24,858 nt of DNA, from positions 1 through 24,858 of IMG/VR virus record IMGVR_UViG_3300037882_001354, one strand, 5' to 3'. Shown here piece after piece: positions 123 through 24,858 of this stretch (within the stretch, counting starts at the first letter, position 1; the number at the start of each line of letters is the position of its first letter). Made by a program: the position numbers and the translations under genes. The notes beneath the pieces were generated by a model. That model saw only the letters and a program-made list of their open reading frames with translations, ran no database searches and was not told where the DNA came from. This stretch comes from a virus.

Positions 123-749
123 ATGAAAGAAAAAAGAAAAGCGACGGCAAAAGAGGTGCAGGAGTTCACAGGGCTCAATGCCTCTCAAATTTCGGCGGCA
201 AAAAAAGCGGGGCTCGACATCACTGATATGAGTTTGATGGTCAAATACAGGAACAATATCCCGCATGCTGACACGCCCGGTAGGACCCCATCTGAGAAGA
301 CGGTGCTCGAAAGAATTGCTGTTGATTTCGCTACATTGCAAAAACCAAATCCTAATGCGGTAGGACTCAACATGGAAGGTGACGAGAAGCTCACCGCAGC
401 GAGGCTGTCTCTGGAGCAGTTAGAAGAGCGGCTAATGGCTCCTGATTTATCGGCAAATGAGGCTAGAACATACAAGGTGCAGATTGATGGGTTGAAAGGG
501 GCTCTTCTGCTACGCAGGGAAATGAATCAGGTGATCTCTCGTGCCGAATGTGCTGAAAACATGTCAAAAATCGCTTTGGCATTGGCGGCATTACTACGCA
601 AAATGGAATCAGAGATACCGACAGTCTGCCATGGGTTGCCATTGCCAGAGGCGAAAGCGACTGCAAAATCGAAACTTCGAGAGGTGCAAAACATGTTTGC
701 TGCTGGGTGTAATGAGTTTTGGCTAAACCACGAGGAGGTAAAACAATGA
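123..749 (+). CDS. terS: Probable terminase small subunit (Nu1-like)
   Basis: A 208-residue protein that would recognise the packaging site and recruit the large terminase subunit. The N-terminus (about 7-40) reads like a short DNA-binding helix-turn-helix (AKEVQEFTGLNASQISAAKK), as in Nu1-type small terminases. A long charged helical region (about 85-145, with LTAARLSLEQLEERL and YKVQIDGLKGALLLRREM) matches the usual oligomerisation part. It lies directly upstream of the large subunit and overlaps its start by ATGA, the usual gene order. The leader is AT-rich with no clear Shine-Dalgarno sequence. Identification rests on position, size and pattern, because small terminases diverge strongly in sequence. 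Confidence 0.75.
   Translation: MKEKRKATAKEVQEFTGLNASQISAAKKAGLDITDMSLMVKYRNNIPHADTPGRTPSEKTVLERIAVDFATLQKPNPNAVGLNMEGDEKLTAARLSLEQLEERLMAPDLSANEARTYKVQIDGLKGALLLRREMNQVISRAECAENMSKIALALAALLRKMESEIPTVCHGLPLPEAKATAKSKLREVQNMFAAGCNEFWLNHEEVKQ
732..738 (+). promoter_or_regulatory. Strong Shine-Dalgarno site for terL
   Basis: GAGGAGG ends 7 bases before the ATG at 746, inside the end of the small terminase gene. It favours 746 over the upstream TTG at 719 as the terL start. It also stands out because many other late genes in this window lack such a site. Confidence 0.75.
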
Positions 750-2521
750 TCGAGTCATTTAAAAAAAGCATCCAAGCACCGTCTGAGTTGCATCCCGCTG
801 ACTGGGCAAATCTTCATGTTTGTGTGGAAAACTCAGAGCGAGGCGAGAAGTTCGATGCAAAACAGACTAGATGGTGGAGGAAGCCTATGGGGCATTATGC
901 TGATTATGTGACGACAAACATGGTTTGCATCATGCCTACAGGTGCGGGAAAATCTACGTTCTTCGAGGCTATCAATTGCTGGATTGTATCAGAGGCACCT
1001 GGGTCTGTGCTCTACGCATCACAAACAAACTCAGATGCAGAGCTATGGTGTGAAACTAGGTTTTTAAAGGCCGCTAGACGATGCAAACCGCTGGATCACC
1101 TTTGGCCTACTAACATACGCAATTCAGTCAGAAAAGATGCGATTGTCTGGCCTCACATGTTTATGGTTGTGGGTGGCGCGAATGTCTCGAATTTTCAAGA
1201 GAAGTCGATTTCCTACGGTCAAGGGGATGAGGCGTGGCAGTGGAAACACGGTCTTGTCGGTGATTGGCTAGCGCGATCACATAACAGGGAAAACAGGAAA
1301 TTCGTTCTAACATCGCAGGCTGGAGAGATTGCTCATGAGGATGACAAAAACGGGAAAACCAGCGAACTCCATGTTGAACATGACAAATGCCGCAAATGGG
1401 ATTTTGGGTGGCGTTGTTCGAGCTGCGGAGAGGCGCACGTTTACAAATTCGAGCAACTGATTTTTGATAATGTGAATCGAGAGGATGGCACGTTAGACGA
1501 ACAAGCAACTGCCGACACAGTGAGGCGAGTTTGCCCTGCGTGCTCCGCTGAGTATGCAGACACGGCGGAAATCAGGCGAAAGTTGCATGATTCGTTGCAA
1601 GAAAATGATGGTTATATCTGCGTGGATCCTAACGGCCAAAGAGGATATGAAGGATTTCACGTTGACCGTGGCGCGATCTGGTGGTGTTCGTGGAAAGATG
1701 ACGTGCTAAAAAAGATGCTCGCCGATAAATATAAAAATATAGGCGATCACACGAAAATCAAAGAATGGATGCAGAAGGACAGGGCTATCGGTTGGACTGA
1801 CTCAGTGGCGATTGATACGATCACGCTTGCATTGTCGGGATACACGGCGGGCGATTATTTAGAGGCGCGAAAAATTGATGAAGAGCAAATCAGGTTTGCA
1901 ACGATTGACGCAGGCGCAGACCATTTTTGGCTTAATATCCGAGCTTGGACAAGTGGTGGTGAGAGTCGCTTGTTATATTTTGCTTATATTCCGACAGCCT
2001 CAGAAGTTGATGCTATCCGCGAGAGATATGGAGTCGAACCAAGGCACACGTTTCTAGATATTGGGTTCGAGCAAGAATTAATGGCTGGTTATATTGTTAA
2101 ATACGGCTGGCAGGGTATCAAGGGAGATGGTAACAAGAAGGATGGTTGGGAATGGCTTATTACACAAGGACCGCGCAAAGGGTATAACGAGCGGAGGCTA
2201 TTCTCTAAGCGAGGATTTATTTTGAGCAAAGAGAAGCAACAAGCGGTTTTCTGGTTCATGGCAACTACGCCGTTGCAATATATTTTGGAGCGTTTGATTC
2301 GTGGGTTGGGCGCAAAATGGGAAAAATACGACGACACGCCGCCGAGTTATCTTAAACAATTGAACGGTGAAAAACTTGTTAGATCGATTGATACCAGCGG
2401 GCGAGAGATTGAGAAATGGAAGCGCTATGGAGCTAACCATGCGCGGGACACGGAGGTAATGCAACTTTGCGCGGCTATCATGTTTAAAGTATTTAAGCCT
2501 GAAGCAACTGTTAATGATTAG
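746..2521 (+). CDS. terL: Terminase large subunit, GpA family
   Basis: A 591-residue DNA-packaging motor: ATPase plus headful or cos nuclease acting at the portal. The Walker A motif PTGAGKST is at about residues 64-71 and a Walker B-like acidic pair (GQGDEAW, D161/E162) follows. Two CxxC pairs (CSSC about 224-227, CPAC about 263-266) form the zinc-binding insert seen in lambda GpA-type terminases. The nuclease half begins near ATIDAGADHFW (about 386-395), with later acidic motifs in HTFLDIGFEQ and NHARDTEVMQL. The length is close to the GpA family norm. The ATG at 746 is chosen because of the GAGGAGG site and the ATGA overlap with the upstream gene. Family assignment is firm; packaging mode (cos or pac) cannot be read from it. 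Confidence 0.95.
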   Translation: MIESFKKSIQAPSELHPADWANLHVCVENSERGEKFDAKQTRWWRKPMGHYADYVTTNMVCIMPTGAGKSTFFEAINCWIVSEAPGSVLYASQTNSDAELWCETRFLKAARRCKPLDHLWPTNIRNSVRKDAIVWPHMFMVVGGANVSNFQEKSISYGQGDEAWQWKHGLVGDWLARSHNRENRKFVLTSQAGEIAHEDDKNGKTSELHVEHDKCRKWDFGWRCSSCGEAHVYKFEQLIFDNVNREDGTLDEQATADTVRRVCPACSAEYADTAEIRRKLHDSLQENDGYICVDPNGQRGYEGFHVDRGAIWWCSWKDDVLKKMLADKYKNIGDHTKIKEWMQKDRAIGWTDSVAIDTITLALSGYTAGDYLEARKIDEEQIRFATIDAGADHFWLNIRAWTSGGESRLLYFAYIPTASEVDAIRERYGVEPRHTFLDIGFEQELMAGYIVKYGWQGIKGDGNKKDGWEWLITQGPRKGYNERRLFSKRGFILSKEKQQAVFWFMATTPLQYILERLIRGLGAKWEKYDDTPPSYLKQLNGEKLVRSIDTSGREIEKWKRYGANHARDTEVMQLCAAIMFKVFKPEATVND

Positions 2522-2560
2522 TATTTACAATCCAGCTAGATACTGTTAGTAATAAAAATC

Positions 2561-2836
2561 ATGTCACCAAGAGACCAAGCCGCAGCGATTTTCCGGTGTA
2601 TCCGTGGGGATTCTGTCGCGATTAAACAACAACGCGACAACTACAAAGCTCTTTGTGCTTCTATAACGTCCCCAAATGGCGGGTTGCGGATTACTAGCTC
2701 AACAGTGAACAACCAGATGTTTAAGGGAGAAAACACGATTTCAGCGCAAGAGCAACTCAACGTTTTGAGTTTACTTATGGTGATGTTAGATAAAGATTCT
2801 GCTGGCTCTAAGTCCGTGACTGCGGTTTTTTATTGA
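2561..2836 (+). CDS. Small protein between terminase and portal
   Basis: A 91-residue protein I do not recognise. It is hydrophilic at the N-terminus (SPRDQAAAIFRCIRGDS) and has a helical C-terminal half (AQEQLNVLSLLMVMLDKDS). Genes in this slot of lambda-like phages often encode the small gpW-type head-tail joining protein, but gpW is usually shorter and I see no decisive motif. It is separated from terL by 39 bases and ends 6 bases before the portal gene, so it is probably co-transcribed. Confidence 0.7.
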   Translation: MSPRDQAAAIFRCIRGDSVAIKQQRDNYKALCASITSPNGGLRITSSTVNNQMFKGENTISAQEQLNVLSLLMVMLDKDSAGSKSVTAVFY

Positions 2837-2842
2837 AAAATT

Positions 2843-4357
2843 ATGATCGTAGACCAAAACGGCAATCAAGTTCATCCCTACGCATTCTCCCGGCAGAATG
2901 CTAGATCCGCGAACCTGGGCGGAGGTGATAGACCGTCGGAGCAATGGAATATGCGGGATCTTGGGTATTCCGTGCCAAGGTGGGACCGTAGGATGTTGCT
3001 CTCTAGTTCTAGGAGTCTTTATCTAAATTCGCCCGTAATGATCGGGGCCAGCGATCAAAAAGCTACCTATGCAGTAGGAAACGCATGGATGCCAGTCTAT
3101 AAAGGCAAAAGCGCGGCTTGGGGACGAGCTGCTACCGATTGGCTGGTGAATGAGTGGTATGAAGATTGCAATCTATCAGGCGGAAACTCGGATTTCTCGA
3201 CAGATTTATTTGTAGATTCATTTTCGATTGATAGAGACGGCGAGATTTTCGAGCTAAAAACATCAGATGCAGATGGTTATCCTCAGATCCAGGTGATTCC
3301 AGCGCATCGCATCGACTCAGGCGGCTTGCCAGAGGGTCAACTGCCCAAAGGGAAATACTCCGCGAAGAAATACTACCACGAGGACGGAATTATTTACCTT
3401 CGTGAGAATGATCGACCTGTTGCATATTCGTTTTGTGATAGCGATGGCAAGCATTCAAAATTTCTTGAAGCAGAGTTTGTGAAACATAGTTTTGACAAGT
3501 TTTGGCCGGAACAAAAACGCGGATTGCCATCGTTTTTTCACTCGCTGAACGGGCTTAAAGACATCCTCCAGTCGGAGGAATGGGAGCGGATGAACTTGCT
3601 GTCAATGTCGTCACTGAATTATACGGTCGAAAACATAGCAGGTGGACCAGATCCAAATGAACCGGATTATGAGGGCCAACCTTGTGGATCGCTAGATTTG
3701 AAATATCACAGCGGCGGGCGGATCATGTATGCAGTGGCAGGAGCTGGTGAGAAAATCACGCAGCACCAGAATTTCAGGCCCGGCAATCCATGGCATGAGT
3801 TTTTTGATCTCCAGGTTAGAATGGCATTGACTGGAATTTCGTGGCCCGTGTCGATGGTATGGAAAGCATCCGGACAAGGGACAGCAGAAAGAAACGACAT
3901 CGGGAAAGCATGCCGCACGGTTGAAGATCGCCAAACGATCCTTGAAAAGATTGCAAAATGGCGCGTTACCTACGCTTTGTCATGGGCTATCGATCAAGGG
4001 ATTTTACCTCGGAATAGTGATTGGTATAAATGGGGATTTACAAAACCCGCTAAACTAACAATTGATGACGGACGGACATCGAAAGAACGGCTTGAAAAAT
4101 TCCGTGCTGGTGTATTGAATCAGTCTGATTTAATTGCAGAAGAAGGGAACACATTTAGAGAGACGCTAATCATTCGCGGCGAGGAAATCGCGCAACGTGA
4201 ATTGAATAGAATTGAAATGGAGAATAAATACGGTATCGAAATTGATCGCCGTGAATATATGCTTCTAACACCTAACGAAATGCCTATTGATGCTTATAAG
4301 AATGATGAGCAAGCAGAAACACCCGAAACCAACACCGAAAAAGATGAAACTGATTGA
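2843..4357 (+). CDS. Portal protein, lambda gpB family
   Basis: A 504-residue protein forming the dodecameric channel at the head vertex through which DNA is packaged and ejected. Recognisable lambda-portal features are the N-terminal region with RWDRRMLLSSSRSLYLNSP, the central stretch around IQVIPAHRIDSGG, and the downstream FRPGNPWHEFFDLQVRMALTG segment that leads to the clip and stem. The length suits the family. It is preceded by an A-rich leader without a Shine-Dalgarno sequence. Its last 14 bases overlap the start of the protease gene, which suggests translational coupling of portal and protease. Confidence 0.92.
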   Translation: MIVDQNGNQVHPYAFSRQNARSANLGGGDRPSEQWNMRDLGYSVPRWDRRMLLSSSRSLYLNSPVMIGASDQKATYAVGNAWMPVYKGKSAAWGRAATDWLVNEWYEDCNLSGGNSDFSTDLFVDSFSIDRDGEIFELKTSDADGYPQIQVIPAHRIDSGGLPEGQLPKGKYSAKKYYHEDGIIYLRENDRPVAYSFCDSDGKHSKFLEAEFVKHSFDKFWPEQKRGLPSFFHSLNGLKDILQSEEWERMNLLSMSSLNYTVENIAGGPDPNEPDYEGQPCGSLDLKYHSGGRIMYAVAGAGEKITQHQNFRPGNPWHEFFDLQVRMALTGISWPVSMVWKASGQGTAERNDIGKACRTVEDRQTILEKIAKWRVTYALSWAIDQGILPRNSDWYKWGFTKPAKLTIDDGRTSKERLEKFRAGVLNQSDLIAEEGNTFRETLIIRGEEIAQRELNRIEMENKYGIEIDRREYMLLTPNEMPIDAYKNDEQAETPETNTEKDETD

Positions 4358-5420
4358 AATTGAAAACAAGGCTGGATCAGTCTCTTTGAATGATGGAGTA
4401 AATAAAGAATCGATTGACCAGATTCTAATGGAGATAGGCATGATTTATGGAGCATCAGCGGCAGAGGCTGGCGGCTATATGGGCGATCTTACAAATGACG
4501 CAACCAATGCAGCCGACAGCCTAACAATCAAAATCAACAGCCAAGGCGGGAGCGTTTTTGATGGTGGCCGACTATACAATGCAATTTCAGAGCTTCGCGC
4601 TCGTGGTGTTTTTGTAACTGCATTTATTGATAACCTGGCGGCATCGATGGGATCGGTTGTTGCTATGGCAGCCGACAAAATCGTCATGGTTAAAAACGGG
4701 CGTATGATGATTCACGAGGTTTCTGCTGGGATTCGAGGCACCAGCAAAGAGATTATGCAGGTAGCCGAGTTATGCCGTGAAATGACGGCTGAGATCGCTA
4801 ACATATACTCAGATCGCACTGGCATCCCTATTGATGATATTTACAAGATGCTAGCAGATGAAACTTGGCTAAATTCTTCTAGAGCATTGGAATTGAAATT
4901 TATTGATGAAATCTATAATCCAACTGCGAAAACTACGCTTGACAATCTATCAGAAATAATTACCAATTCATCTATGTTTTTTAAAAATCGCAATGAGGTT
5001 GACAGCTATAAAGCAGACCTTGAAAAATTTAAAGCTGATTCTGAAGCACTAACAAACAAGCTTGTAGAACTTGAGGCTGTTCTTGATGCGTCGAAAGATG
5101 AGTTTTCTACCGAGTTGGAAGCTAAGGCGAAAGAAGCCCTGGACCTATCAAACAAAGTAACAGAGTTGGAAGCATCGCTTTCTGCTAGTAAAGCGGAGAT
5201 TGCAAACTTGACTGCTCAAGTTGAAATCACCGAGGAGAAGATTGGCTTGGCTGCTAGCCGCCTGTTGGCTTCACACGGTCACTCAAAACCTGTAAATATG
5301 GGCAAACAGACAATCACTGAGAATCTTGATAATATTAAAACCATGGCAGAATATAACGCGATGGGGCCGAAGGATCGGTTGGCGTTTGTTAAGACTGGCG
5401 GAAAATTCATCGATCAATAA
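4344..5420 (+). CDS. ClpP-like prohead protease with C-terminal coiled coil
   Basis: A 358-residue head-maturation protease of the ClpP/S14 type. The fold signature runs from TIKINSQGGSVFDGG (about 61-75) through the nucleophile in NLAASMGSV (Ser101), the histidine in MMIHEVSAG (His124) and a likely aspartate in ADETW (Asp172). Residues about 218-305 are a heptad-like, Glu/Lys/Leu/Ala-rich coiled coil, followed by a tail ending RLAFVKTGGKFID. The coiled coil probably serves as the scaffolding domain, as in lambda gpC/Nu3-type fusions, because no separate scaffold gene lies before the coat gene. The longer reading from 4287 would run inside the portal gene; ATG 4344 is preferred because the conserved-looking protein begins there. 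Confidence 0.9.
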   Translation: MKLIEIENKAGSVSLNDGVNKESIDQILMEIGMIYGASAAEAGGYMGDLTNDATNAADSLTIKINSQGGSVFDGGRLYNAISELRARGVFVTAFIDNLAASMGSVVAMAADKIVMVKNGRMMIHEVSAGIRGTSKEIMQVAELCREMTAEIANIYSDRTGIPIDDIYKMLADETWLNSSRALELKFIDEIYNPTAKTTLDNLSEIITNSSMFFKNRNEVDSYKADLEKFKADSEALTNKLVELEAVLDASKDEFSTELEAKAKEALDLSNKVTELEASLSASKAEIANLTAQVEITEEKIGLAASRLLASHGHSKPVNMGKQTITENLDNIKTMAEYNAMGPKDRLAFVKTGGKFIDQ

Positions 5421-5439
5421 AATTTAATAATATAAATAT

Positions 5440-6564
5440 ATGCCTAATACACTAACCAATTTGATACCGACTCTCATCGAGGGTTTTGACGTTGTTTCCC
5501 GTGAACAGCAAGGATTTGTTTCCTCTGTCACTCGTGATCCACGAGCCGACCGAGTGGCGAAAAACCAAACACTCTATTCTTGGGCCGCTCCTTCTGCTAC
5601 TATTGCAGACATCACTCCAGCCGCCACTTCACCACAAGCTGCTGACCAAGCGCTTTCGAATAAGGCAATCACGATCACCAATTACAAAATGAGTGATTTC
5701 TACTTCACCGCGGAGGAGGAGTATGCACTCGGTCAAAATTATGGAAACATTGTTTCTGACAAGGTTGAGCAAGCAATCCGCTCGCTCACTAACCAGATGG
5801 AAATTGACCTTTTCAATGCATCGTATCTTGGCGGCTCACGTGCTGTTGGAACTGCAGGAACTGCACCATTCGCACTCGATATTTCCGCGTCTGCCGAAGT
5901 CACCCGAATTCTCAACGAGAACGGTGCTCCATGGGTAACACGTAGCTTGATTGTTGACGGTCTGGCCGCTTCCAAACTACGGAGCCTTCAACAACTCACA
6001 CGAGCCAATGAAGCCGCTTCCACGATGACTCTTCGCGACGGTCAAATCCTTGATCTCAACGGCCTCTCTATCAAAGAATCCGGCGCTGTGAAAGCTATCG
6101 CAGCAGGAACAGGCACAGGCTATCAGGTGAGCGGAGCAACCGCAGCAGGCGCGACAACGATCACGCTCAAAACAGGAACAGGCACAGTGCTTGCTGGTGA
6201 TATTATCACCATTAGCGGCAACAGCTATGTTGTTGTCACTGGTGTTGCAGCTCCAGGATCCATCACAATTGCCGCTCCCGGACTTCGTGCCGCTGCTGCT
6301 GACAACACCGCCGTTGCGGTTGTTGCCGCATCGACTCGCAACGTTGGTTTTAGCCGCAACGCTATCATCCTCGCCACCCGCCTACCTGCTCTCCCTGCTG
6401 GTGGGGACATGGCAGAAGATCGTCAAACCATCACTGATAGCCGCAGCGGTATCAGCCTTGAAGTCGCACTTTATCGCCAATATCGTCAAGTTAGATATGA
6501 AATCTCTGCCGCTTGGGGCGTAACTGTTATCAAGCCGGAGCATATCGCCATCTTGATGGGTTGA
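5440..6564 (+). CDS. Major capsid protein, P22 coat-like
   Basis: A 374-residue coat protein. The N-terminus (IEGFDVVSREQQGFVSSVTRD), the middle SDFYFTAEEEYALGQNYGN, the inserted beta-rich segment with VLAGDIITISGNSYVV (about 245-265) and the C-terminus AWGVTVIKPEHIAILM match the layout of the P22 gp5 coat family. It is somewhat shorter than P22 coat. A 13-base stretch, GGAACAGGCACAG, occurs twice (near 6108 and 6175) in the loop-coding part. The gene lies between the protease and a hairpin terminator, as expected for the most highly expressed virion gene. The leader AATAATATAAATAT has no Shine-Dalgarno sequence. Confidence 0.88.
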   Translation: MPNTLTNLIPTLIEGFDVVSREQQGFVSSVTRDPRADRVAKNQTLYSWAAPSATIADITPAATSPQAADQALSNKAITITNYKMSDFYFTAEEEYALGQNYGNIVSDKVEQAIRSLTNQMEIDLFNASYLGGSRAVGTAGTAPFALDISASAEVTRILNENGAPWVTRSLIVDGLAASKLRSLQQLTRANEAASTMTLRDGQILDLNGLSIKESGAVKAIAAGTGTGYQVSGATAAGATTITLKTGTGTVLAGDIITISGNSYVVVTGVAAPGSITIAAPGLRAAAADNTAVAVVAASTRNVGFSRNAIILATRLPALPAGGDMAEDRQTITDSRSGISLEVALYRQYRQVRYEISAAWGVTVIKPEHIAILMG

Positions 6565-8855: not shown

Positions 8856-9397
8856 ATGGATACACAGGCCACCGCACAGGGGATTTGAACTTCTTGTCTT
8901 GCTGTATGTCCATTGGTATCTCTCCAAGCTTTCCTGAGCCCGTTGAGATCATTCAAAACTCTGATGGTAAAGATTATCATTCTTTTCGGATTGAGCCGCA
9001 TTCTATGTGCGGAAAATATGAAACGGAAGTGATGAATTGCGCTTGGACGGATCCAAAGCTGCTACCAGAAACCCACCCTTTCATGATCGTCTCTGGCTTC
9101 TCTAGGAGTGCCAAAGGGTGCAGGACTAAGAATGATTTCATTGAGGCTGCCGCTAGCTATTTAATGATTTCAAAAGATGCTGTTAGAAATAGCTTAAAGG
9201 CGATTTCAGACCTTGAAACAAACAGCCCGGAATCTCCAGTCACTTACGTTTGCTGTTTTATCCTTAACCGTTTCGCAGCGATTTCATGGGCGAAATCTGC
9301 TATACCTAAAGACTGCATCATGCGTGGTTCTTCCGTTGTTATGTTAGACGGGAAGCTTTCCAGCGAAAAAAGAAAATTCATCATCTCACACTTATGA
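8852..9397 (+). CDS. Unknown protein before the tail chaperones
   Basis: A 181-residue protein, cysteine-containing (LSCCMSIGISPSFPEP, VTYVCCFILNRF), with no family I recognise. It overlaps the upstream small gene and the downstream chaperone gene by ATGA, so it is part of the tail operon. The ribosome-binding sequence GAGGAGG lies about 10 bases upstream inside the preceding ORF. Genes in this slot vary widely among siphoviruses. Confidence 0.68.
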   Translation: MNGYTGHRTGDLNFLSCCMSIGISPSFPEPVEIIQNSDGKDYHSFRIEPHSMCGKYETEVMNCAWTDPKLLPETHPFMIVSGFSRSAKGCRTKNDFIEAAASYLMISKDAVRNSLKAISDLETNSPESPVTYVCCFILNRFAAISWAKSAIPKDCIMRGSSVVMLDGKLSSEKRKFIISHL

Positions 9398-10040: not shown

Positions 10041-11399
10041 ATGGCAATCACAGCACAAGTTGTTTTGAGATTTTCAGGCGCACAAGTTGCGCGTGGTTTG
10101 GCTGCTGTTCAGCGTGGTTTCGCTAACGTTGCGAGGGCAGGGATCAGTGCGTTCTCTTCGCTAATATCAAGCGCAACCCGCCTTGCCGCTGTGCTTGGTC
10201 CTATTGCGGCATTTGCTGGGTTCGGTAAAATGGTTACGGGATCTGTGAACGCGGCGGCAAGCATCGAAGATTTAACTGCTATGTATTCCACCCTTTTAGG
10301 TTCTCAAGCAGAAGGGAAGAGGTTAATGGAGGGAATCATCAAGCTCAACGAACAATCCCGGTTAGGTCTCGATGACATGGCTTCTGGTGCATCTAAATTT
10401 TTGGCACAAGGGATGAAGATCGAGGACGTAATTAAGACACTGGATATGCTTGGCAAAGTTACCATGGGAGATGCTGATAAGTTTAAACGGCTTAGTGAGC
10501 AATACAGCCAAGTTATGGGTAAAGGTAAATTCCAGGCAGAGGAGAGAATGGCCTTTACTGAGGCTGGTTGGGACCCAATTGCAGAGCTAGAGAAGATGAC
10601 AGGCAAATCAAAAGCTGCTTTTTTTAAAATGATGGAGGCTGGTCAAATTACTTTCGAAATGATCCAAGAAGCCATGGTAAATGCAACCACTGGAGCGGGG
10701 CGGTTTACAAAGGTTAACGAAGACATGTCGAAGACCACCACGGGAAAATGGATGATTATGTTAGATACTTGGGAGCGGCTAAAGATCGCGATGGGAACAC
10801 CTATCAACGATCATTTGCGCCCGTTGCTAGATCAAGCGACAGCGAAGCTTGGAACGATGGGTGAAAAATTTAAAGAAATTGGTGAACAAATTGGACGAAT
10901 AATAACAGCCATCACGAATGCTTATCAAAATGGCGAGTTAGGAGCACTACTAAAAGAAGGAATTGAGGTTGTGTGGGACCAAGCAATAGCAAGACTTGTT
11001 GCCGCCTTTGTTACGGGAGCGGACTATATGGGAACAGTAATAAAGAATGCGATAAGAGGGGATGATCCAGCAGAGGAGGGTTTTCAAAAAGGATTCAGAC
11101 CTGACTTTAAAACATTCGGACCATTTCTAATCCCTGCGACATATAGGGATAAGAAGCCGAGCTCTTACGCGGAAAACCTAGAGATAGCGCAGGCAGGGAT
11201 GGGGACGAAAGAATCCAAAAAAGCACTCATGGATCGGCTCGAAAGCAACCAATCAGTGCATGCCAAAGGTCCATTACCAATGGCCTCTGCGGCAGATTAT
11301 CAATTGATGTTGCAAGAAATGAGAGCGGCAAAAGAAGCTTTGCTAGGCACAAAGAAAGCAGTTGAGTCAATTGTTCCAAAACTTAATTACAATTACTAA
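10041..11399 (+). CDS. Tape measure protein
   Basis: A 452-residue tail length ruler. The N-terminal part is Ala/Gly-rich and partly hydrophobic (GISAFSSLISSATRLAAVLG, then AAFAGFGKMV), followed by long helical segments (for example DMASGASKFLAQGMKIEDVI and WERLKIAMGTPINDHLRPLL), as in the common tape measure N-terminal domain. The short C-terminal part has no lysozyme or peptidase signature. At the usual 1.5 angstrom per residue it would specify a tail of roughly 70 nm, short for a siphovirus. It follows the frameshifted chaperone pair directly, with the SD-less leader TTTTTAATAT. Confidence 0.92.
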   Translation: MAITAQVVLRFSGAQVARGLAAVQRGFANVARAGISAFSSLISSATRLAAVLGPIAAFAGFGKMVTGSVNAAASIEDLTAMYSTLLGSQAEGKRLMEGIIKLNEQSRLGLDDMASGASKFLAQGMKIEDVIKTLDMLGKVTMGDADKFKRLSEQYSQVMGKGKFQAEERMAFTEAGWDPIAELEKMTGKSKAAFFKMMEAGQITFEMIQEAMVNATTGAGRFTKVNEDMSKTTTGKWMIMLDTWERLKIAMGTPINDHLRPLLDQATAKLGTMGEKFKEIGEQIGRIITAITNAYQNGELGALLKEGIEVVWDQAIARLVAAFVTGADYMGTVIKNAIRGDDPAEEGFQKGFRPDFKTFGPFLIPATYRDKKPSSYAENLEIAQAGMGTKESKKALMDRLESNQSVHAKGPLPMASAADYQLMLQEMRAAKEALLGTKKAVESIVPKLNYNY

Positions 11400-11401
11400 C
11401 A

Positions 11402-12283
11402 ATGAGCAAAATGATATTCCCGCAAGGGGTCACACATATTCCACAGCATGATCTCAATGTTAATTTCAACCAGAACGGTGGGGTCATGGCTAGTCAGTCA
11501 TTCCTTGCAAAGAAGTCTGATCTGGTTGTCAACTCAACGCTTTCTAGATTATTTACGCAAGGTAATCTCCTAGGCAACATAGATCCTAATTGCCCTGCAC
11601 CATATCGGAATTTGAAGCTTGTTTCTTTTGTTCCTCAAGATTTCGCGCCAGGTGTGATCTCAATTCCTTGTGAGTTCTCAGGCTATGAATTCGGAAACAG
11701 CGGAGGAACTAGCAGCGGGAGCACTCCAGTAATTGAAACGTATTCTTTGCGAGGATCATTAGAGGAGGCTCATATAACATACCACAAGAAATTCCAAGAG
11801 CTATCAGATACTGATAAAACAAGGATAGGATACCAATTAGCTGGCAAAGCATCTTTATATTCTGGAGATTTAGGTGAATGGGTTCCATTAAAACTACCAT
11901 CAAAAATTCCACCAATTGACACGGAAGAAGTGCCTGACGTTTTGGTTTTTAAGCCATTTAGAGACAAAGAAAATAATAAATGGTCATTGACTGGTGATGC
12001 ATTGAAATTTGCAACTATGATTGACGAAGGGAATCTAAGCTTTAAATCACCGTCATACACTTGGATAGTTAGAACTGAAGGTGAGCTTGGGTTCACTTCA
12101 GCTCAACTCAATTCAATAGGTAAATTCACGAATCCTCCGGGACCAGCACCAAAACCTAATAATGGTTGGGATTGGATGCTGATCTCGCCAGATCAAGAAC
12201 AGGTTGGCGTTGGTCGATACATAAAAGACTTAACTTTTCAACTCGTTAGAAAAGACGAAAAGACTGATTTCCTTTACACTTAA
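11402..12283 (+). CDS. Probable distal tail protein
   Basis: A 293-residue protein of mixed beta character with short Gly/Ser and Pro linkers (NSGGTSSGSTPV, NPPGPAPKPNNGWDWM). No named family is recognised. It is the first gene after the tape measure, where distal tail and tip proteins lie in long-tailed phages. It starts 2 bases after the tape measure stop. Role inferred from position only. Confidence 0.7.
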   Translation: MSKMIFPQGVTHIPQHDLNVNFNQNGGVMASQSFLAKKSDLVVNSTLSRLFTQGNLLGNIDPNCPAPYRNLKLVSFVPQDFAPGVISIPCEFSGYEFGNSGGTSSGSTPVIETYSLRGSLEEAHITYHKKFQELSDTDKTRIGYQLAGKASLYSGDLGEWVPLKLPSKIPPIDTEEVPDVLVFKPFRDKENNKWSLTGDALKFATMIDEGNLSFKSPSYTWIVRTEGELGFTSAQLNSIGKFTNPPGPAPKPNNGWDWMLISPDQEQVGVGRYIKDLTFQLVRKDEKTDFLYT

Positions 12284-12288
12284 AAAAC

Positions 12289-12903
12289 ATGTTAATAAAG
12301 CTAACAGGATTAGTTATCACGCCACGGCTTCCGAAAAGTTTTGGAGGCATTTATAAATGGGCAAAAGAAGTGAATACTGCTTTGCAACAGCTAAGGGATA
12401 GAGTTGTTATTATACCGACAACACCGACAACTACCAAGACAGAAACTAGTGACACTGTTAGTGAATGCGATTTTGGAATAATTATAGAAACTCCAGCACT
12501 AGACCCAGAAGACCAACCAACGTATGCCATCAGGGGCGGTTATGTTAATTGTGGAGATCAGAACTGGAACTTTGATAATCAAGATATAAATACTAGCGCA
12601 AATGGTCGTTGGCTTGTTTATCTCGTTGTTGATTGTGAGGTGAATCAAGATGATAACAATGAGTTATTACTACCGGGTGTTAAGACTGGGACCAAACCAA
12701 CTGGAGACTGGGACCAAACTCCCTACACAGGATCAGAAAACTATCCGCCAAACAACAACCCGGAAGCAGGAGCAGGGACCGGAACAATCACGCTGCCCAT
12801 CGGAGTTCTAACGATAACTGACGGAATTCCGACATTTAACAACACAGGATGCGGTGGTTTTATGATTAACCATTGCAGCGGAACCCTAAGTTTTAGCAGA
12901 TGA
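12289..12903 (+). CDS. Tail or virion structural protein
   Basis: A 204-residue protein. The N-terminus is short and helical (GIYKWAKEVNTALQQLRDRV), then a threonine-rich linker (IIPTTPTTTKTETSDT), then a beta-rich C-terminal domain with conserved-looking cysteines (NNTGCGGFMINHCSGTLSF). The helix-linker-beta architecture is typical of tail tip or fibre-associated proteins. It is preceded by TTAAAAAACATG, the same leader as the tailspike gene at 17041. It overlaps the next gene by ATGA. Confidence 0.7.
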   Translation: MLIKLTGLVITPRLPKSFGGIYKWAKEVNTALQQLRDRVVIIPTTPTTTKTETSDTVSECDFGIIIETPALDPEDQPTYAIRGGYVNCGDQNWNFDNQDINTSANGRWLVYLVVDCEVNQDDNNELLLPGVKTGTKPTGDWDQTPYTGSENYPPNNNPEAGAGTGTITLPIGVLTITDGIPTFNNTGCGGFMINHCSGTLSFSR

Positions 12904-20749: not shown

Positions 20750-20901
20750 AATATCACAGAAACCACGTCGGATCCTATGGAGCGTATATGGAAAGTTGCA
20801 GAAATAGGGCGCAGAGGAAGAGACGATTGTTTTTCATGTCCCTCTTCTGTCTAGTAACTGCAACGGCAGCCAGTGTGATAATCGTAATTCTATTAAGCTA
20901 A
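20746..20901 (+). CDS. 51-residue single-pass membrane protein
   Basis: A basic N-terminal region (YHRNHVGSYGAYMESCRNRA, then QRKRR) is followed by one hydrophobic helix to the C-terminus (FFMSLFCLVTATAASVIIVI). By the positive-inside rule the N-terminus should be cytoplasmic. ATG 20746 is preferred over the longer upstream reading because that would sit inside two overlapping genes. The stop shares one base with the next start (TAATG). Function unknown. Confidence 0.6.
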   Translation: MKYHRNHVGSYGAYMESCRNRAQRKRRLFFMSLFCLVTATAASVIIVILLS

Positions 20902-21674
20902 TGAACATACCAACAATAACAACGACAGATAAAAACGAGATTGAGAGCGCAAAAAACACAGGAGAAATACAGTCGGCGCTCATCATCGCAAAAAGATTCC
21001 CGAGGGATGAGGTGGCGGCGGTAGAGAAAATAAAAAATGCTTGTTCCAGGCTAGGATTGGCAGAGCAGGCATTTTACGCATACGGAAAAGGGGGGGCATC
21101 CGTTGAGGGTGCATCCATCAGACTCGTCGAGGCCGTGGCGCAGTATTGGGGCAACATTAGATCCGGCATTGTTGAGATTAGCCGTGGAATCTCAGATGGC
21201 GTTAAACACTCCGAGTGCAAAGCATTCGCGTGGGATGTCGAAACGAATTATTATGAAGAGAAGATTTTCACTGTTAGGCATATTCGAGAAACTATAAAAG
21301 GAAGCTATGCGCTCAGAGATGAGCGGGAGGTTTACGAAATGATCGCCAATATGGGGAGTCGTAGAAAACGCGCATGCATCCTGTCGGTGATTCCGAGTGA
21401 TGTGATCGAAACGGCGGCAGAACAATGCCGGGCCACACTGCACGCAAAAGCAGATGTTTCTCCTGAGTCTATTTTAAAAATGCTTGCAGCATTTGAAAAG
21501 ATGGGCGTGACAAAATCTCAAATTGAAGCACGCATTCAGAGGAAAATGGATGCAATCGCGCCCGCACAGCTCTTGAACCTGCGGAAAATCCACCTATCAA
21601 TCAGGGATGGAATGAGCAGCAAAGATGACTGGTTTGCGGTAGTTGTAAACGTGGAGTCACCTGAGTCGTTATGA
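20901..21674 (+). CDS. Phage recombination protein, RecT-like family candidate
   Basis: A 257-residue protein of a family frequent in phages. Typical stretches are ALIIAKRFPRDEVAAVEKI, GGASVEGASIRLVEAVAQYW, ECKAFAWDVETNYYEEKIF, EVYEMIANMGSRRKRACILS and VIPSDVIETAAEQCRATL. The C-terminal part (FEKMGVTKSQIEARIQRKMD, LRKIHLSIRDGMSSKDDWF) resembles the C-terminal tail of RecT-type single-strand annealing proteins. It would pair complementary DNA strands during phage recombination. No partner exonuclease lies in the window. The family resemblance is from memory of pattern, so the annealing role is inference. It shares one base with the upstream ORF. Confidence 0.7.
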   Translation: MNIPTITTTDKNEIESAKNTGEIQSALIIAKRFPRDEVAAVEKIKNACSRLGLAEQAFYAYGKGGASVEGASIRLVEAVAQYWGNIRSGIVEISRGISDGVKHSECKAFAWDVETNYYEEKIFTVRHIRETIKGSYALRDEREVYEMIANMGSRRKRACILSVIPSDVIETAAEQCRATLHAKADVSPESILKMLAAFEKMGVTKSQIEARIQRKMDAIAPAQLLNLRKIHLSIRDGMSSKDDWFAVVVNVESPESL

Positions 21675-21702: not shown

Positions 21703-21888
21703 ATGAACACTAAACATGATATACCGCACGATGGTTATCCGACATGTCACCACTGTAAAGGGAGGATGACACACACGATGCTTGAAAGTTGGTGCTCAGA
21801 CTGCGGCTTCATCTCGACCATGAACGGCTGCGGATGGCCGTATGAAGGGGATGACGACGACCTGCGCGATTCTCCACCGAATGCCTAG
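21703..21888 (+). CDS. Small zinc-ribbon protein
   Basis: A 61-residue protein with two CxxC knuckles (CHHCKGRM and CSDCGF) about 14 residues apart, then an acidic tail (EGDDDDLRD). Probably binds one zinc ion. It ends with TAG inside GCCTAGCTCTGGCACC, the same 16-base word in which the gene at 23861 ends, i.e. within an eroded attC-like left arm. Function unknown. Confidence 0.65.
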   Translation: MNTKHDIPHDGYPTCHHCKGRMTHTMLESWCSDCGFISTMNGCGWPYEGDDDDLRDSPPNA

Positions 21889-22003
21889 CTCTGGCACCCT
21901 CACCACTAACCACTAAAACACTATGCAAACCGAAAACGATACATCGAAGCCCGAACCCTCACCCCGACAGGAGGCTGGTGAGGGTTGGCTGCCCCCAGAA
22001 ACC
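21876..22003. repeat. Eroded attC-like site (array left edge)
   Basis: The left part (ACCGAATGCCTAGCTC, then TGGCACCCTCACC to 21904) is nearly the same as the left arm of the site at 24043. Right arm GGTGAGGGTTG (21977-21987) pairs with CACCCTCACC and keeps the extra T seen in the intact sites. The terminal AAC is AAT and no GTT end is present; CAGAAACCGCC stands where it should be. The right arm can also pair with the perfect local copy AACCCTCACC (21954-21963). Read as a site that has decayed into the start of the next gene. Confidence 0.5.
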
Positions 22004-22267
22004 GCCCCGCATGATGGAACGCCCATAATTGGCGATTTCGGTTGGCCGTGGGCAAACTTCGCGGTATGGGATGAATGCGATGAGGAGTGGTGTATCGCAA
22101 CGATCCAAGCATGCCCGATCATTGATCGCCAGATGAACACATGGATCGAGACGGACACCGAAAAACGAGGCGCGCTGAAATCGTGGATGCCTCTTCCGTA
22201 TTTGCCGAACGCAATAGGTGAGGCACGGGCGGACAACGCCACCTCGCCGCAAGATCAAACTATCTAA
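21923..22267 (+). CDS. DUF551-like protein
   Basis: A 114-residue protein. After a Thr/Pro-rich start (MQTENDTSKPEPSPRQ), the pattern WLPPETAPHDGTPIIGDFGW and the later WMPLPYLP match the DUF551 layout (W-x-P-x-x-x-A-P-x-D-G-T, then W-x-P-L-P) common in phages and prophages. Function of the family is unknown. Its start lies in the eroded attC-like site and its stop in the loop of the next site (22204-22326). Confidence 0.75.
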   Translation: MQTENDTSKPEPSPRQEAGEGWLPPETAPHDGTPIIGDFGWPWANFAVWDECDEEWCIATIQACPIIDRQMNTWIETDTEKRGALKSWMPLPYLPNAIGEARADNATSPQDQTI

Positions 22268-22326
22268 CCACATGGAAACTCCGACACACACCGCCCCGCC
22301 CGTTGACCTCGACCGACTTGTTCGCA
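22204..22326 (-). repeat. attC-like site 1
   Basis: Ends GCCGAAC (22204-22210) and GTTCGCA (22320-22326). Left arm GGTGAGGCACGGGCGG (22217-22232) pairs completely with 22296-22314 apart from three extra bases on the right arm (T303, A306 and G311 of 22xxx). The 63-base loop holds the stop of the DUF551-like gene (22265-22267) and the start of the next gene (22272). Confidence 0.85.
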
Positions 22327-22706
22327 TTCCTGTCGGTCAATATAGGTGCTCGAAATGGTACCAATTTTGGAAGCGCGGCGGATGGCTGACAGTCGAAAGA
22401 AAGGGAGGGAAAACGTCCGTGATGTGGACGAGCGGGAAGGATACGCACCACCCGTTCTGTGGGTGTGCAACCGCTGTCGATGTGGACACAAGCGGGGAAA
22501 TGACCGCTTACTACGAATCAGTTCTGTCGATGTGGATAAAATGGGGCTACGGGCGCGGAACGGAGGCCGACCGCCAGCGAGGGCTTGAAGAGGCACGATG
22601 GATGGTCCGCGTGCTTTGTGATGCGAACGCAGAGCGCATCCACGGCGGCGATGGACTTACAAATCAACCAGAGACGCCCACGCCGTTGGATGGCGCGTCT
22701 TGTTAG
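22272..22706 (+). CDS. Cassette protein, Trp-rich, unknown
   Basis: A 144-residue protein. The T/P-rich start METPTHTAPPVDLDRL is encoded by the loop and right arm of attC-like site 1; the body (YRCSKWYQFWKRGGWLTVER, SGKDTHHPFCGCATAVDVDT, EARWMVRVLCDANAERIHGG) is the cassette proper. The last ~25 residues are encoded by site 2 and the stop TAG lies in its GTTAGCC end. Two cysteines and a histidine pair (HHPFCGC) could bind metal. No family recognised. A start at 22218 is possible but would lie in the left arm of site 1 and overlap the previous gene more. Confidence 0.68.
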   Translation: METPTHTAPPVDLDRLVRIPVGQYRCSKWYQFWKRGGWLTVERKGGKTSVMWTSGKDTHHPFCGCATAVDVDTSGEMTAYYESVLSMWIKWGYGRGTEADRQRGLEEARWMVRVLCDANAERIHGGDGLTNQPETPTPLDGASC

Positions 22707-22708
22707 CC
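22622..22708 (-). repeat. attC-like site 2
   Basis: Ends TGCGAAC (22622-22628) and GTTAGCC (22702-22708). The left arm AGAGCGCATCCACGGCG (22631-22647) pairs over 17 bases with 22681-22700, leaving extra T86, G93 and G97 of 226xx on the right arm. The arms are almost identical to those of site 4 (23744-23828), while the loops between them are unrelated. Confidence 0.88.
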
Positions 22709-22717
22709 TTTCTTATT

Positions 22718-22906
22718 ATGAACGACACACTAGAAACACTGAAAAACCTACTTGAAGGGGTAGAACACGCAATCCGCATTGGAGATTGGAATGTTGATGG
22801 TCGATGCGATCCCGCCATGGTGATCGAACGCGCCGAATCAATACTGCTTTCCAACGGATACCGAAGAGACTCGCTGACAGGAGAGGAGTTCATTTTTGAG
22901 GGCTAA
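22718..22906 (+). CDS. Small cassette protein, unknown
   Basis: A 62-residue acidic helical protein (MNDTLETLKNLLEGVEHAIR, then MVIERAESILLSNGYRRDSL and an end GEEFIFEG). It is the only gene of its ~205-base segment. The ATG at 22718 is 10 bases after the GTTAGCC end of site 2, and the stop TAA is part of the GGCTAAC end of site 3, a packing typical of integron cassettes. The longer start at 22700 would read through site 2. Function unknown. Confidence 0.7.
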   Translation: MNDTLETLKNLLEGVEHAIRIGDWNVDGRCDPAMVIERAESILLSNGYRRDSLTGEEFIFEG

Positions 22907-22990
22907 CGCTGGGGATCTGGCACCGCCGCCGGGAACGCCCGAAAACCACGAATGACGCTCCCGGCGGTTGCCAGCATGCCATTGTTCTGC
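22901..22990 (-). repeat. attC-like site 3
   Basis: Ends GGCTAAC (22901-22907) and GTTCTGC (22984-22990). Left arm CTGGCACCGCCGCCGGGA (22917-22934) pairs with TCCCGGCGGTTGCCAG (22959-22974), with an extra CCG on the left and the conserved extra T on the right. The rest of the 197-base gap to 23104 is an A-rich leader with no ORF I can support. Confidence 0.85.
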
Positions 22991-23103
22991 CTCTTAATTT
23001 TGCGACTGAAAAGAAAGTGAAAATAAATTGAAATAGTGCTTGCAGGAAATCAAACGGGGGAGTATCTCTATTCACGTAAGCGAAAGCGAACCCCACAAAC
23101 AAA

Positions 23104-23316
23104 ATGACAACTACCACACTCCGCCTCCTGAAAGCAAAAACCACCATCCAATGCGACTGCTGCGGATGCTCAATGCCTCGCGTCAAGTCCTTCAAGGTCG
23201 CCGCCGACGACAAGGAATCAGCCAAGATCGAAGTCCGCGAGAAAGTCGCCAAGTGGCAAGAAAGCCTGAAAGGGCAAAACTGCCGGATCTGCCAATCAAT
23301 CATCGACAGCATCTAA
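23104..23316 (+). CDS. Small Cys-rich, probably zinc-binding protein
   Basis: A 70-residue protein with an N-terminal cluster CDCCGC (Cys17, 19, 20, 22) and a C-terminal CRIC (about Cys60-63). Between them is a charged helix (DDKESAKIEVREKVAKWQES). The two cysteine pairs could coordinate one zinc ion and close the domain. First of three genes in the longest cassette segment (22984-23750). A GC-rich hairpin follows its stop. Function unknown. Confidence 0.7.
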   Translation: MTTTTLRLLKAKTTIQCDCCGCSMPRVKSFKVAADDKESAKIEVREKVAKWQESLKGQNCRICQSIIDSI

Positions 23317-23324
23317 GGAATCCA

Positions 23325-23344
23325 GCGGGGGTGAAAGCCCCCGC
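23325..23344 (+). terminator. GC-rich hairpin after the Cys-rich gene
   Basis: GCGGGGG and CCCCCGC form a perfect 7-pair stem around TGAAAG, 9 bases after the TAA stop. There is no following T-run, so it may be a weak or factor-assisted terminator, or a structure that protects or separates the mRNA of the next gene. Confidence 0.5.
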
Positions 23345-23359
23345 CTACCCACCGAGCCA

Positions 23360-23551
23360 ATGAATGAAACCGAAAATCAAATGAGGCTCCGCAGGGCGAA
23401 AGAGTCGCTGGCGACAGCACGCGAAAGAGAATCTATCGCCCGCCGTGCCTTTGCGGACGCTACCGAATCCCTAAAAGCGGCCAAAGAACGCTACGAGGAT
23501 CTATTCATGGCCGAAGAAAAAGCCGAAGCAACTCGCCGCCGCCAAGCATGA
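23360..23551 (+). CDS. Small coiled-coil protein
   Basis: A 63-residue protein that is charged and helical over nearly its full length (QMRLRRAKESLATARERESI, then SLKAAKERYEDLFMAEEKAE). A short coiled coil or helical hairpin is likely. It overlaps the next gene by ATGA, so the two are translated together; it may be a partner of the DNA-binding protein encoded next. Function unknown. Confidence 0.65.
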   Translation: MNETENQMRLRRAKESLATARERESIARRAFADATESLKAAKERYEDLFMAEEKAEATRRRQA

Positions 23552-23736
23552 AAGAGAAACCAACCAGGGGAGGCGCTAGGGAAGGCGCGGGCCGCAAGCC
23601 AAGGGATACTCCCCGCGAAGCAATCACTGTGCGGTTGGAACCGCAGGACTCGTCCAAGCTGCGGGATCTGTGTGCGGCTCGGAAACTATCTCAAGCGGAT
23701 TGGATCACGGAAAAGATCCGCAAGTCACGCCTCTGA
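23548..23736 (+). CDS. Small DNA-binding protein, GAREGAGRKP / ribbon-helix-helix type
   Basis: A 62-residue protein. The start KPTRGGAREGAGRKPRDTP is the frequent basic N-terminal tail of phage and plasmid ribbon-helix-helix proteins. It is followed by a strand (AITVRLEPQD) and two helices (SSKLRDLCAARKLSQADWIT, EKIRKS). It would bind DNA as a dimer and may regulate local transcription; the target is unknown. It ends 7 bases before attC-like site 4. Confidence 0.75.
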   Translation: MKEKPTRGGAREGAGRKPRDTPREAITVRLEPQDSSKLRDLCAARKLSQADWITEKIRKSRL

Positions 23737-23743
23737 TTTCTCG

Positions 23744-23828
23744 GCAGAACGCAGAGCGCATCCACGGCGACCAATAAACTAAACTTAACAACAAACGGGA
23801 CGCCGTTGGATGGCGCTGCTTGTTAGCC
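23744..23828 (-). repeat. attC-like site 4
   Basis: Ends GCAGAAC (23744-23750) and GTTAGCC (23822-23828). The left arm shares 22 identical bases with site 2, and the right arm also matches it (CGCCGTTGGATGGCGC). Extra T806 and G813 (of 23xxx) stay unpaired on the right arm. The AT-rich loop differs fully from that of site 2. This site is wholly intergenic. Confidence 0.88.
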
Positions 23829-23860
23829 ATTCTTAATTTTAACTCCTAGGCACCGAAAAC

Positions 23861-24055
23861 ATGAATAAAAAAGAACACATTAAACGCCACAAACTACTGC
23901 ACGCATATCTTGACGAACTTCTGGCCGATTGGATCGGAGAGACGGAAGGCTTGCCATCGAAATGCACCCTCATGGAGTTCACGCGATGGTCACACCAGCA
24001 AACAATCAAACCAAGCGATAGGCACGAACGCTATCCTGATAAGGCTAACGCCTAG
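23861..24055 (+). CDS. Small cassette protein, unknown
   Basis: A 64-residue helical protein with basic N-terminus (NKKEHIKRHKLLHAYLDELL) and the centre CTLMEFTRWSHQQTIKP. It is the only gene of its segment. Its leader (TTCTTAATTTTAACTCC) repeats sequence also found after site 3. The stop TAG lies in GCCTAGCTC, within the left arm of attC-like site 5. Function unknown. Confidence 0.65.
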   Translation: MNKKEHIKRHKLLHAYLDELLADWIGETEGLPSKCTLMEFTRWSHQQTIKPSDRHERYPDKANA

Positions 24056-24162
24056 CTCTGGCACCGCGCCGAGAGCGCGTGCCGCAACTCACAAATCTAT
24101 GAAGCAAAATACAAATACAGATAACACAGCGGGCGCGGTTGCTCAGGAGCGTCTTGTTCGGC
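24043..24162 (-). repeat. attC-like site 5
   Basis: Ends GGCTAAC (24043-24049) and GTTCGGC (24156-24162). Left arm GCTCTGGCACCGCGCC (24055-24070) pairs with 24132-24150 with extra T39, T43 and G46 (of 241xx) on the right arm. An alternative short hairpin, GGCACCGCGC with GCGCGTGCC (24060-24083), competes for the left arm. The loop carries the start codon of the next gene (24099). Confidence 0.83.
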
Positions 24163-24575
24163 GTTGCGATACGTGCCATCACTTCAGGCTAGACGCGGAA
24201 AAGAACGGGCATAAATGGGGCGTCTGTACATGGGATTCGCCCGTGCCAGACCACTACAAAAAACGCGACGAATCCAAAATGTCGATTCTCTCCGTCGCTT
24301 GTGGATCACTAGCGTTTGGGGAGGAATGTAATGCTTGGCAAGGATTTACGCCAATGGAAGACAATGGAGCGGCTGAAATAGCGCGGCTCCGCGTCTGCCT
24401 TGCTGACTGTGAGGCCACGCTAAAAACGATTCACACATGGGCGACGTTCCGCTGTGGGGAGGCTCTTAACGATAGGTGGAGCGTCGCCAAGCTCTGCAAG
24501 CTGGTCCTGAATTCTCTGCCGAACGATAAGCGTCTGGCATCTGCCGACGAGAATCTCAACAACCACGAAAAATGA
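24099..24575 (+). CDS. Cassette protein with Cys/His metal-binding start
   Basis: A 158-residue protein. The T/N-rich beginning (MKQNTNTDNTAGAVAQERLV) is encoded by the loop and right arm of attC-like site 5. The body starts with CDTCHHFRLDAEKNGHKWGV and C-x-W, then VACGSLAFGEECNAWQGF; the spaced cysteines and histidines suggest a small metal-binding domain. A helical C-terminal half (AAEIARLRVCLADCEATLKT) follows. The stop lies in the loop of site 6 and overlaps the next start (ATGA). A longer upstream reading to 23910 lacks support because it shadows the gene at 23861. Function unknown. Confidence 0.68.
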   Translation: MKQNTNTDNTAGAVAQERLVRRCDTCHHFRLDAEKNGHKWGVCTWDSPVPDHYKKRDESKMSILSVACGSLAFGEECNAWQGFTPMEDNGAAEIARLRVCLADCEATLKTIHTWATFRCGEALNDRWSVAKLCKLVLNSLPNDKRLASADENLNNHEK

Positions 24576-24639
24576 CAGATACACCTACCCCGCCCGCCGA
24601 AGCGACTGATGGCAGATTGCCAGCACGCGCTTGTTATGC
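24518..24639 (-). repeat. attC-like site 6
   Basis: Ends GCCGAAC (24518-24524) and GTTATGC (24633-24639). Left arm GCGTCTGGCATCTGCC (24530-24545) pairs with GGCAGATTGCCAGCACGC (24611-24628) over 16 bases; T617 and C624 (of 24xxx) are left unpaired on the right arm. The loop contains both the stop of one gene and the start of the next. Confidence 0.85.
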
Positions 24640-24858
24640 CTCTTTTTGGGGGAAGATCCTGCGCAAGTGGGACTGGTGGATTTACCGCAAAGCCTGCGGA
24701 TCGCTGCGGCGGATGACGCTCGATAATCCCGGAATGAGCTACCTCATGGAACTCAATATCCGGGGATGGAACGAGCAACTGGAAATCTCGCCGGAGCTGA
24801 AACGCTCCACGGAACTCTTCCACGATGCGATGCGGGATCATTCTCGGATGAACGCAAA
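24572..24858 (+). CDS. Cassette protein, partial at window end
   Basis: An ORF that starts in the loop of attC-like site 6 and is still open at the end of the window (95 codons seen). The start MTDTPTPPAEATDGRLPARA is T/P-rich and site-encoded, like those of the genes at 22272 and 24099. The body is Trp-rich and helical (KILRKWDWWIYRKACGSLRR, MELNIRGWNEQLEISPELKR). It overlaps the upstream gene by ATGA. Many phage proteins begin MTDTP and end in similar helical segments; no function is known. Confidence 0.6.
   Translation, partial: MTDTPTPPAEATDGRLPARACYASFWGKILRKWDWWIYRKACGSLRRMTLDNPGMSYLMELNIRGWNEQLEISPELKRSTELFHDAMRDHSRMNA

Follow-up and report, generated by a model that had tools for sequence, protein, structure and literature searches.

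An integron cassette array at the end of a phage contig and the phage integron lineage to which it probably belongs

The virus record IMGVR_UViG_3300037882_001354 from IMG/VR, analysed here as one window comprising the whole record of 24,858 bases, carries a series of hairpins towards its right-hand end, which raises the question of what these hairpins are, whether they belong to the phage itself and whether they still serve to move genes. Integrons are bacterial gene-capture systems that spread antibiotic resistance, and phages sometimes acquire them from their hosts. The answer proposed here is that the window very probably holds a phage integron's distal portion, i.e. head-to-tail cassettes moved at their attC hairpins by an integron integrase.

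The six hairpins at 22204–24639 are attC sites and form an integron cassette array. Two covariance models, R1 and R2, both built from attC sites of other phages and containing no window sequence, were run on both strands and recovered the six intact sites on the minus strand only—attC1 at 22204–22326 (E = 1e-13 with R1 and 4e-8 with R2), attC2 at 22622–22708 (4e-9 and 2e-10), attC3 at 22901–22990 (1e-7 and 6e-11), attC4 at 23744–23828 (3e-10 and 2e-8), attC5 at 24043–24162 (1.9e-22 and 4e-8) and attC6 at 24518–24639 (1e-11 and 3e-6). The E-values thus span 1.9e-22 to 1.3e-7 for R1, with the next best match at 1.1, and 6e-11 to 2.8e-6 for R2, with the next best at 0.27. In a blind scan of the whole window for AAC...GTT hairpins, the same sites occupied ranks 1–5 and 7. 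Concerning the segment ends, the first and last heptamers of a segment are exact reverse complements of each other in all five segments (20/20 free positions), whereas within single sites only 10 of 24 positions match; core-box complementarity therefore tracks the cassette and not the single site, and random GTT/AAC heptamer pairs taken from the same stretch match exactly in 0.55% of cases. With six intact attC sites and a decayed one, and hence more than the minimum of two sites having core boxes and an imperfect stem, the stretch also belongs to the attC clusters known as CALINs.

A sequence-only reading of this DNA had claimed just such a set of six attC-type hairpins, the reverse complementarity of the segment ends and a cassette array without a visible integrase in a phage genome, and had proposed the covariance scan of both strands. 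All three claims are upheld, the last one by the agreement of the covariance models, the segment-end rule, the arrays of related phages and the cassette differences between sister phages. Its inventory of sites was correct for the six listed, a seventh, decayed one (attC0, minus strand, 21876–22006; R1 E = 6.2e-7) having been overlooked. The core boxes of attC0 are mutated (AAT for AAC, GTT gone) and its right arm is lost; it nevertheless matches intact attC sites of other phages at 87–93% over 21869–21987, and its loop contains the ATG of the following gene.

Since the hairpins sit between consecutive genes and two of their right arms are terminator-like, they might be regarded as RNA elements, i.e. 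terminators or leaders that recur from one phage gene to the next. No Rfam family matches them, however, and terminator-like sites are no commoner than in shuffled sequence. In the R1 alignment, 14 of the 14 stem pairs have changed on both sides with zero one-sided G-T steps, a pattern that therefore points to a DNA hairpin. RNA elements would also leave unexplained the matching segment ends, the attI and integrase of the relatives and, above all, the base-exact cassette swaps described below, which in the main refute this explanation, so that it can practically be dismissed.

The limits of a cassette can be seen in two sister phages (G019 and G025), which share 99.9% identity in the 9.5 kb surrounding the integrase and 96.6% in another 7.4 kb, their arrays being shuffled. 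In the base-level alignment, their junctions agree through xxxxAAC and then diverge; the units common to both run from the AAC of one attC to just before the next AAC, the four bases preceding AAC belonging to the left-hand unit. A cassette common to two further phages (G012 and G021; 91% over 360 bp) has the same limits. The unit therefore consists of an attC and the sequence to its right, crossover takes place at G^TT of the minus strand, and the integrase occupies the attI end, its usual position; with attC on the minus strand, gain and loss fall at AA^C of the plus strand, and the cassette genes are antisense to attC. The cassette breaks of the window accordingly lie at the AAC trinucleotides starting at 22208, 22626, 22905, 23748, 24047 and 24522. 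It should be pointed out here that gain and loss of whole cassettes at the crossover were seen between the related phages G019 and G025, not in the window itself. The sequence-only reading had put the boundaries at GTT of the plus strand (22320, 22702, 22984, 23822, 24156 and 24633) and suggested looking for differences between related phages there. In this respect it chose the wrong strand: the swaps fall at AA^C, and plus-strand sites with GTT breaks are ruled out by the G019/G025 junctions, by the strand-specific covariance matches and by the position of attI and the integrase. The idea that swaps exchange the N-termini of neighbouring genes, whose starts lie in attC loops, was also rejected, because the start codon and its gene lie in one unit.

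The relatives were found by searching IMG/VR with two short attC motifs, which matched 27 and 5 stretches, and in most of these contigs the attC chains obey the segment-end rule. Siphophages among them hold the full system, that is, an integron integrase, a conserved attI and the array. An intact integrase adjoins the array in five contigs, and a sixth one has the integrase up to the contig end. The integrase of G019 (321 amino acids) finds its best PDB match in the integron integrase IntI4 (E = 1.4e-32), the alignment spanning the integron-specific insertion, and among the NCBIfam models the integron integrase ranks first with 194 bits versus 111 for XerD. The catalytic residues R-K-H-R-H-Y are invariant among four phage integrases (alignment A1), the amino-acid identity to IntI1 is about 40%, and the phage enzymes form a clade in the evolutionary tree with a support of 100/99. 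Judged from these matches, the phage integrase is a divergent member of the integron integrases, the deeper placement of its clade being unsure because of long branches. As a separate observation, a gene annotated as 'xerD' in Virus Rctr41k (KX853513.1; 4680–10097 of L149) groups with the integron integrases and is followed by a six-site attC-type chain and two methyltransferase genes, with no integron annotation.

Approximately 50 bases upstream of the intact phage integrase there is a conserved site, AACAG..AATT...AAGTG.C.ATAA.CA, and in five of five arrays the last attC correctly predicts the tetranucleotide that precedes the AAC of the site; as far as pattern and position tell, this site is the attI. 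It is present in 11 IMG/VR stretches. In three of them (L155, L042 and L158) it has no adjacent integrase, the chain prediction being still correct, whereas in G020 it is followed by a C-terminal remnant of the integrase (2137–2244); a similar remnant is seen in G009 at 12785–12901. Forms with and without the integrase therefore exist, and in G020 and G009 the remnants mark what is evidently a deletion of the integrase with the array retained. A possible second attI type, AACA.(G/C)TTATT...ATG.CAA.CTACC.AAAACAAC, is seen where an attI is predicted in two phages that have no integrase, namely at the array end of G018 (reverse strand, about 17762) and at 9164 of G017.

The cassette genes of the window, all on the plus strand, oppose their attC and point toward attI, many of them starting in the loop of their own attC; the typical layout, with genes in attC orientation and leading away from attI, is thus reversed. 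The first gene (21923–22267, 114 amino acids) starts in the loop of attC0 and stops in that of attC1, the second (22272–22706, 144 amino acids) starts in the attC1 loop and ends with TAG within GTTAG at the edge of attC2, and the third (22718–22906, 62 amino acids) ends with TAA within GGCTAAC of attC3. Three genes share the next unit (23104–23316, 23360–23551 and 23548–23736, with 70, 63 and 62 amino acids, respectively). They are followed by the gene at 23861–24055 (64 amino acids), taking its stop TAG from AACGCCTAG of attC5, and by that at 24099–24575 (158 amino acids), which extends from its start in the loop of attC5 to its stop in that of attC6 and has an ATGA overlap with the last gene (24572–24858), a partial one running off the contig, with its first 21 codons supplied by attC6. 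Many phage cassette genes likewise stop in the next attC via AACGCCTAG, neighbours overlapping as ATGA. For comparison, 53 cassettes with the same attC family from Verrucomicrobiota genomes were scored in the same way as the phage cassettes. Of the 75 phage cassettes, 64 have their longest frame antisense to attC, as against 6 of the 53 chromosomal ones (Fisher p = 9e-18), and this frame starts inside its own attC in 50 of 75 versus 4 of 53 (Fisher p = 4e-12), both p-values overstating the independence of the data because the counts include near-duplicate contigs.

Beyond its attC part, the gene at 24572–24858 is 63–70% identical to an ordinary gene that has its own start in two attC-free phages. 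The homology begins at residues 18–22, at the end of the attC, the first 21 residues being attC-encoded, and MTDTPTPPAEATDGR is the predicted N-terminal peptide if the start lies inside the attC. This alignment may illustrate a route by which an ordinary gene becomes a cassette. In the third cassette, the gene at 23104–23316 is preceded by a conserved, non-coding leader of 105 bases (23007–23111), ending in GTATCTCTATTCACGTAAGCGAAAGCGAACCCCAAAACAAAATGACAAC and 82% identical to its counterpart in phage G025 (16940–17042 of L062), which precedes a gene outside the array; the leader is perhaps a promoter carried by the cassette. A sigma-70 promoter scan of the array revealed no excess over chance. 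With regard to gene content, N6/N4 DNA methyltransferases recur among the phage cassette genes (11295–12071 in G019, 28457–29281 in G035 and others), as in the phages of Qi et al. (2023), with defence against restriction as their possible role.

The left four fifths of the window are filled by a head and tail module—terminase, portal, head protease, major head protein and tape measure, as assigned by PHROGs—in which packaging and head genes, from the terminase to the major head protein, cover 719–6564 on the plus strand. A gene left of the array (20901–21674, plus strand) belongs to the viral family PHROG 3657 (E = 1.6e-85), and the array begins right of 21,876, past further phage genes. It extends up to the contig end, no phage gene following on the right, and it might thus be seen as a host chromosomal integron flanking an integrated prophage, the phage itself being without an integron. 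Verrucomicrobiota chromosomes do hold the same attC family, and prophages excised at attC of a host integron have been described (Qi et al. 2023, PMC9892861). The relatives nevertheless make this improbable: the G020 array is flanked by a RusA-like gene and a helicase gene of a full siphophage, equipped with terminase (TerL), portal, head, tape measure and tail fibre genes, and its attC chain resumes at the opposite end of the contig, as expected of a closed genome. Phage genes are present on both sides also in G028 (terminase and DnaB helicase) and G018 (replication and structural genes, one group on each side), and the genes in phage cassettes run opposite to those in chromosomal ones. In G034 the array is located beside terminase (TerL), portal, head and tape measure genes. 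The terminase and portal families differ among the array-bearing phages, several phage lineages being therefore involved. Searches for relatives of the window via an array-flanking gene, via the cassette gene at 24099–24575 and via DNA in named phages yielded none, and eight capsid-related contigs were without an attC chain on either strand of the stretches examined. G019 also carries a predicted tmRNA, a tRNA-Arg and a separate phage-type tyrosine integrase (3067–3607 and 16832–18016 of L057).

With regard to the bacterial side, the main attC motif was found in a single genome among the 84,980 of bacterial and archaeal species, on a phage-like contig of a Verrucomicrobiaceae metagenome-assembled genome that also carries an integron-integrase-like gene. 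The attC covariance model matches 22 of 241 sampled Verrucomicrobiota genomes. The integrase-like genes of 289 Verrucomicrobiota genomes reach at most 175 bits on the profile of the phage integrases, which themselves score 660–696. A chain scan detected no attC chain within about 1.5 kb of these chromosomal integrase-like genes, so most of them are only candidate integrons. One chromosome fragment of a verrucomicrobial bacterium (L182; G178:C10) contains 22 consecutive attC sites with genes in the usual direction.

Several points weigh against assigning the window array to a mobile phage integron. Its right end falls inside a cassette, and its location inside a phage thus depends on the left flank and on the relatives, the right flank being beyond the contig end. 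Neither an integrase nor an attI was found on the contig, the whole record of 24,858 bases having been checked, so that the search for both that the sequence-only reading had called for succeeded in the related phages and not here. The phage integrases reach 180–195 bits with the model TIGR02249, below its curated cut-off of 265, although it is the best model. All the contigs are metagenome assemblies, and the p-values given above are too strong. A verrucomicrobial host is likely because of one metagenome-assembled genome and the shared attC family, and the transcription of the cassettes as part of a phage operon would follow from the gene layout alone. The missing integrase is uninformative, because the contig stops within a cassette on the side where relatives have attI and the integrase gene, and because other relatives keep attI with the integrase gene lost.

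The array could also be a fossil, its integrase lost and its cassettes immobile. The contig without an integrase, the dead leftmost attC and the mere C-terminal remnants kept by G020 and G009 fit such a view, which is a possibility to be taken into account, albeit a rather doubtful one: the six sites have intact core boxes and stems with a perfect segment-end match, sister phages with an intact integrase have recently been shuffled, and the contig stops short of the place where the integrase is expected. The window array, being part of a phage integron as preferred here, presumably still moves, and its integrase would lie just off the contig or act in trans.

In such an integron, each cassette would be excised and reinserted by the integron integrase at its attC hairpin, read on the minus strand with the crossover at G^TT there, i.e. 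at AA^C of the plus strand. One attC together with the gene to its right, often starting in its own attC loop and running toward attI, would make up the unit. Directly after the last cassette, attI and the divergent integrase gene would follow as in the relatives, which in the window means beyond the contig end, and new cassettes would join at this downstream end. A phage-type integrase, acting in cis or in trans, would perform the recombination, and the array would be transcribed with the phage operon. The attC identity, strand, unit boundaries, attI, integrase, phage location and gene orientation are seen, as features of the sequences, in the window or in its relatives.

Based on the above results, it seems fairly probable that a phage-adapted integron lineage, with its own integrase, attI and inverted attC-started cassettes, is a gene-swap platform shared by Verrucomicrobiota phages, and that those which have lost the integrase but kept attI and the array would depend on a co-infecting phage or prophage to supply it in trans. 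The observations suggest that phages use their own version of the integron to trade genes with one another. The same attC family in phages with different packaging genes, the phage-type integrase with its attI and the cassette-swapped sisters would mean that phages do not just carry integrons by accident but make use of them and possibly shuttle them. The inverted attC-started genes bear on how a gene becomes a cassette and on how cassettes far from the integron promoter are expressed, both questions being approachable with a small integrase, a 40-base attI and synthetic attC sites.

Integrons and CALINs have already been reported in phage genomes, several phage attC sites being active with IntI1, and the complete phage integrons described match host types, namely Vibrio, class 1 and Shewanella (Qi et al. 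2023, PMC9892861). The phages studied here resemble those in having attC arrays with or without an integrase and DNA methyltransferase cassettes. They differ in the recurrence of a distinct clade of integrases that has an attI of its own, in one attC family extending across several phage lineages and in the cassette genes opposing attC; the open-access papers searched did not describe any recurrent lineage of phage integrons whose cassettes are inverted. The chromosomal integrons of Verrucomicrobiota share the attC family with the phages, as defined by the covariance model, their cassette genes, however, running with attC (47/53). Like IntI1, the phage enzyme is a tyrosine recombinase with the integron-specific insertion, predicted to act with attC and attI. 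In the 'atypical' integrons of Treponema, the integrase gene is flipped and reads toward attI (PMC3607928). The integrase and cassette genes there point one way, as they do in these phages, with the difference that in the phages the integrase gene has kept its usual place and it is the cassette genes that are flipped.

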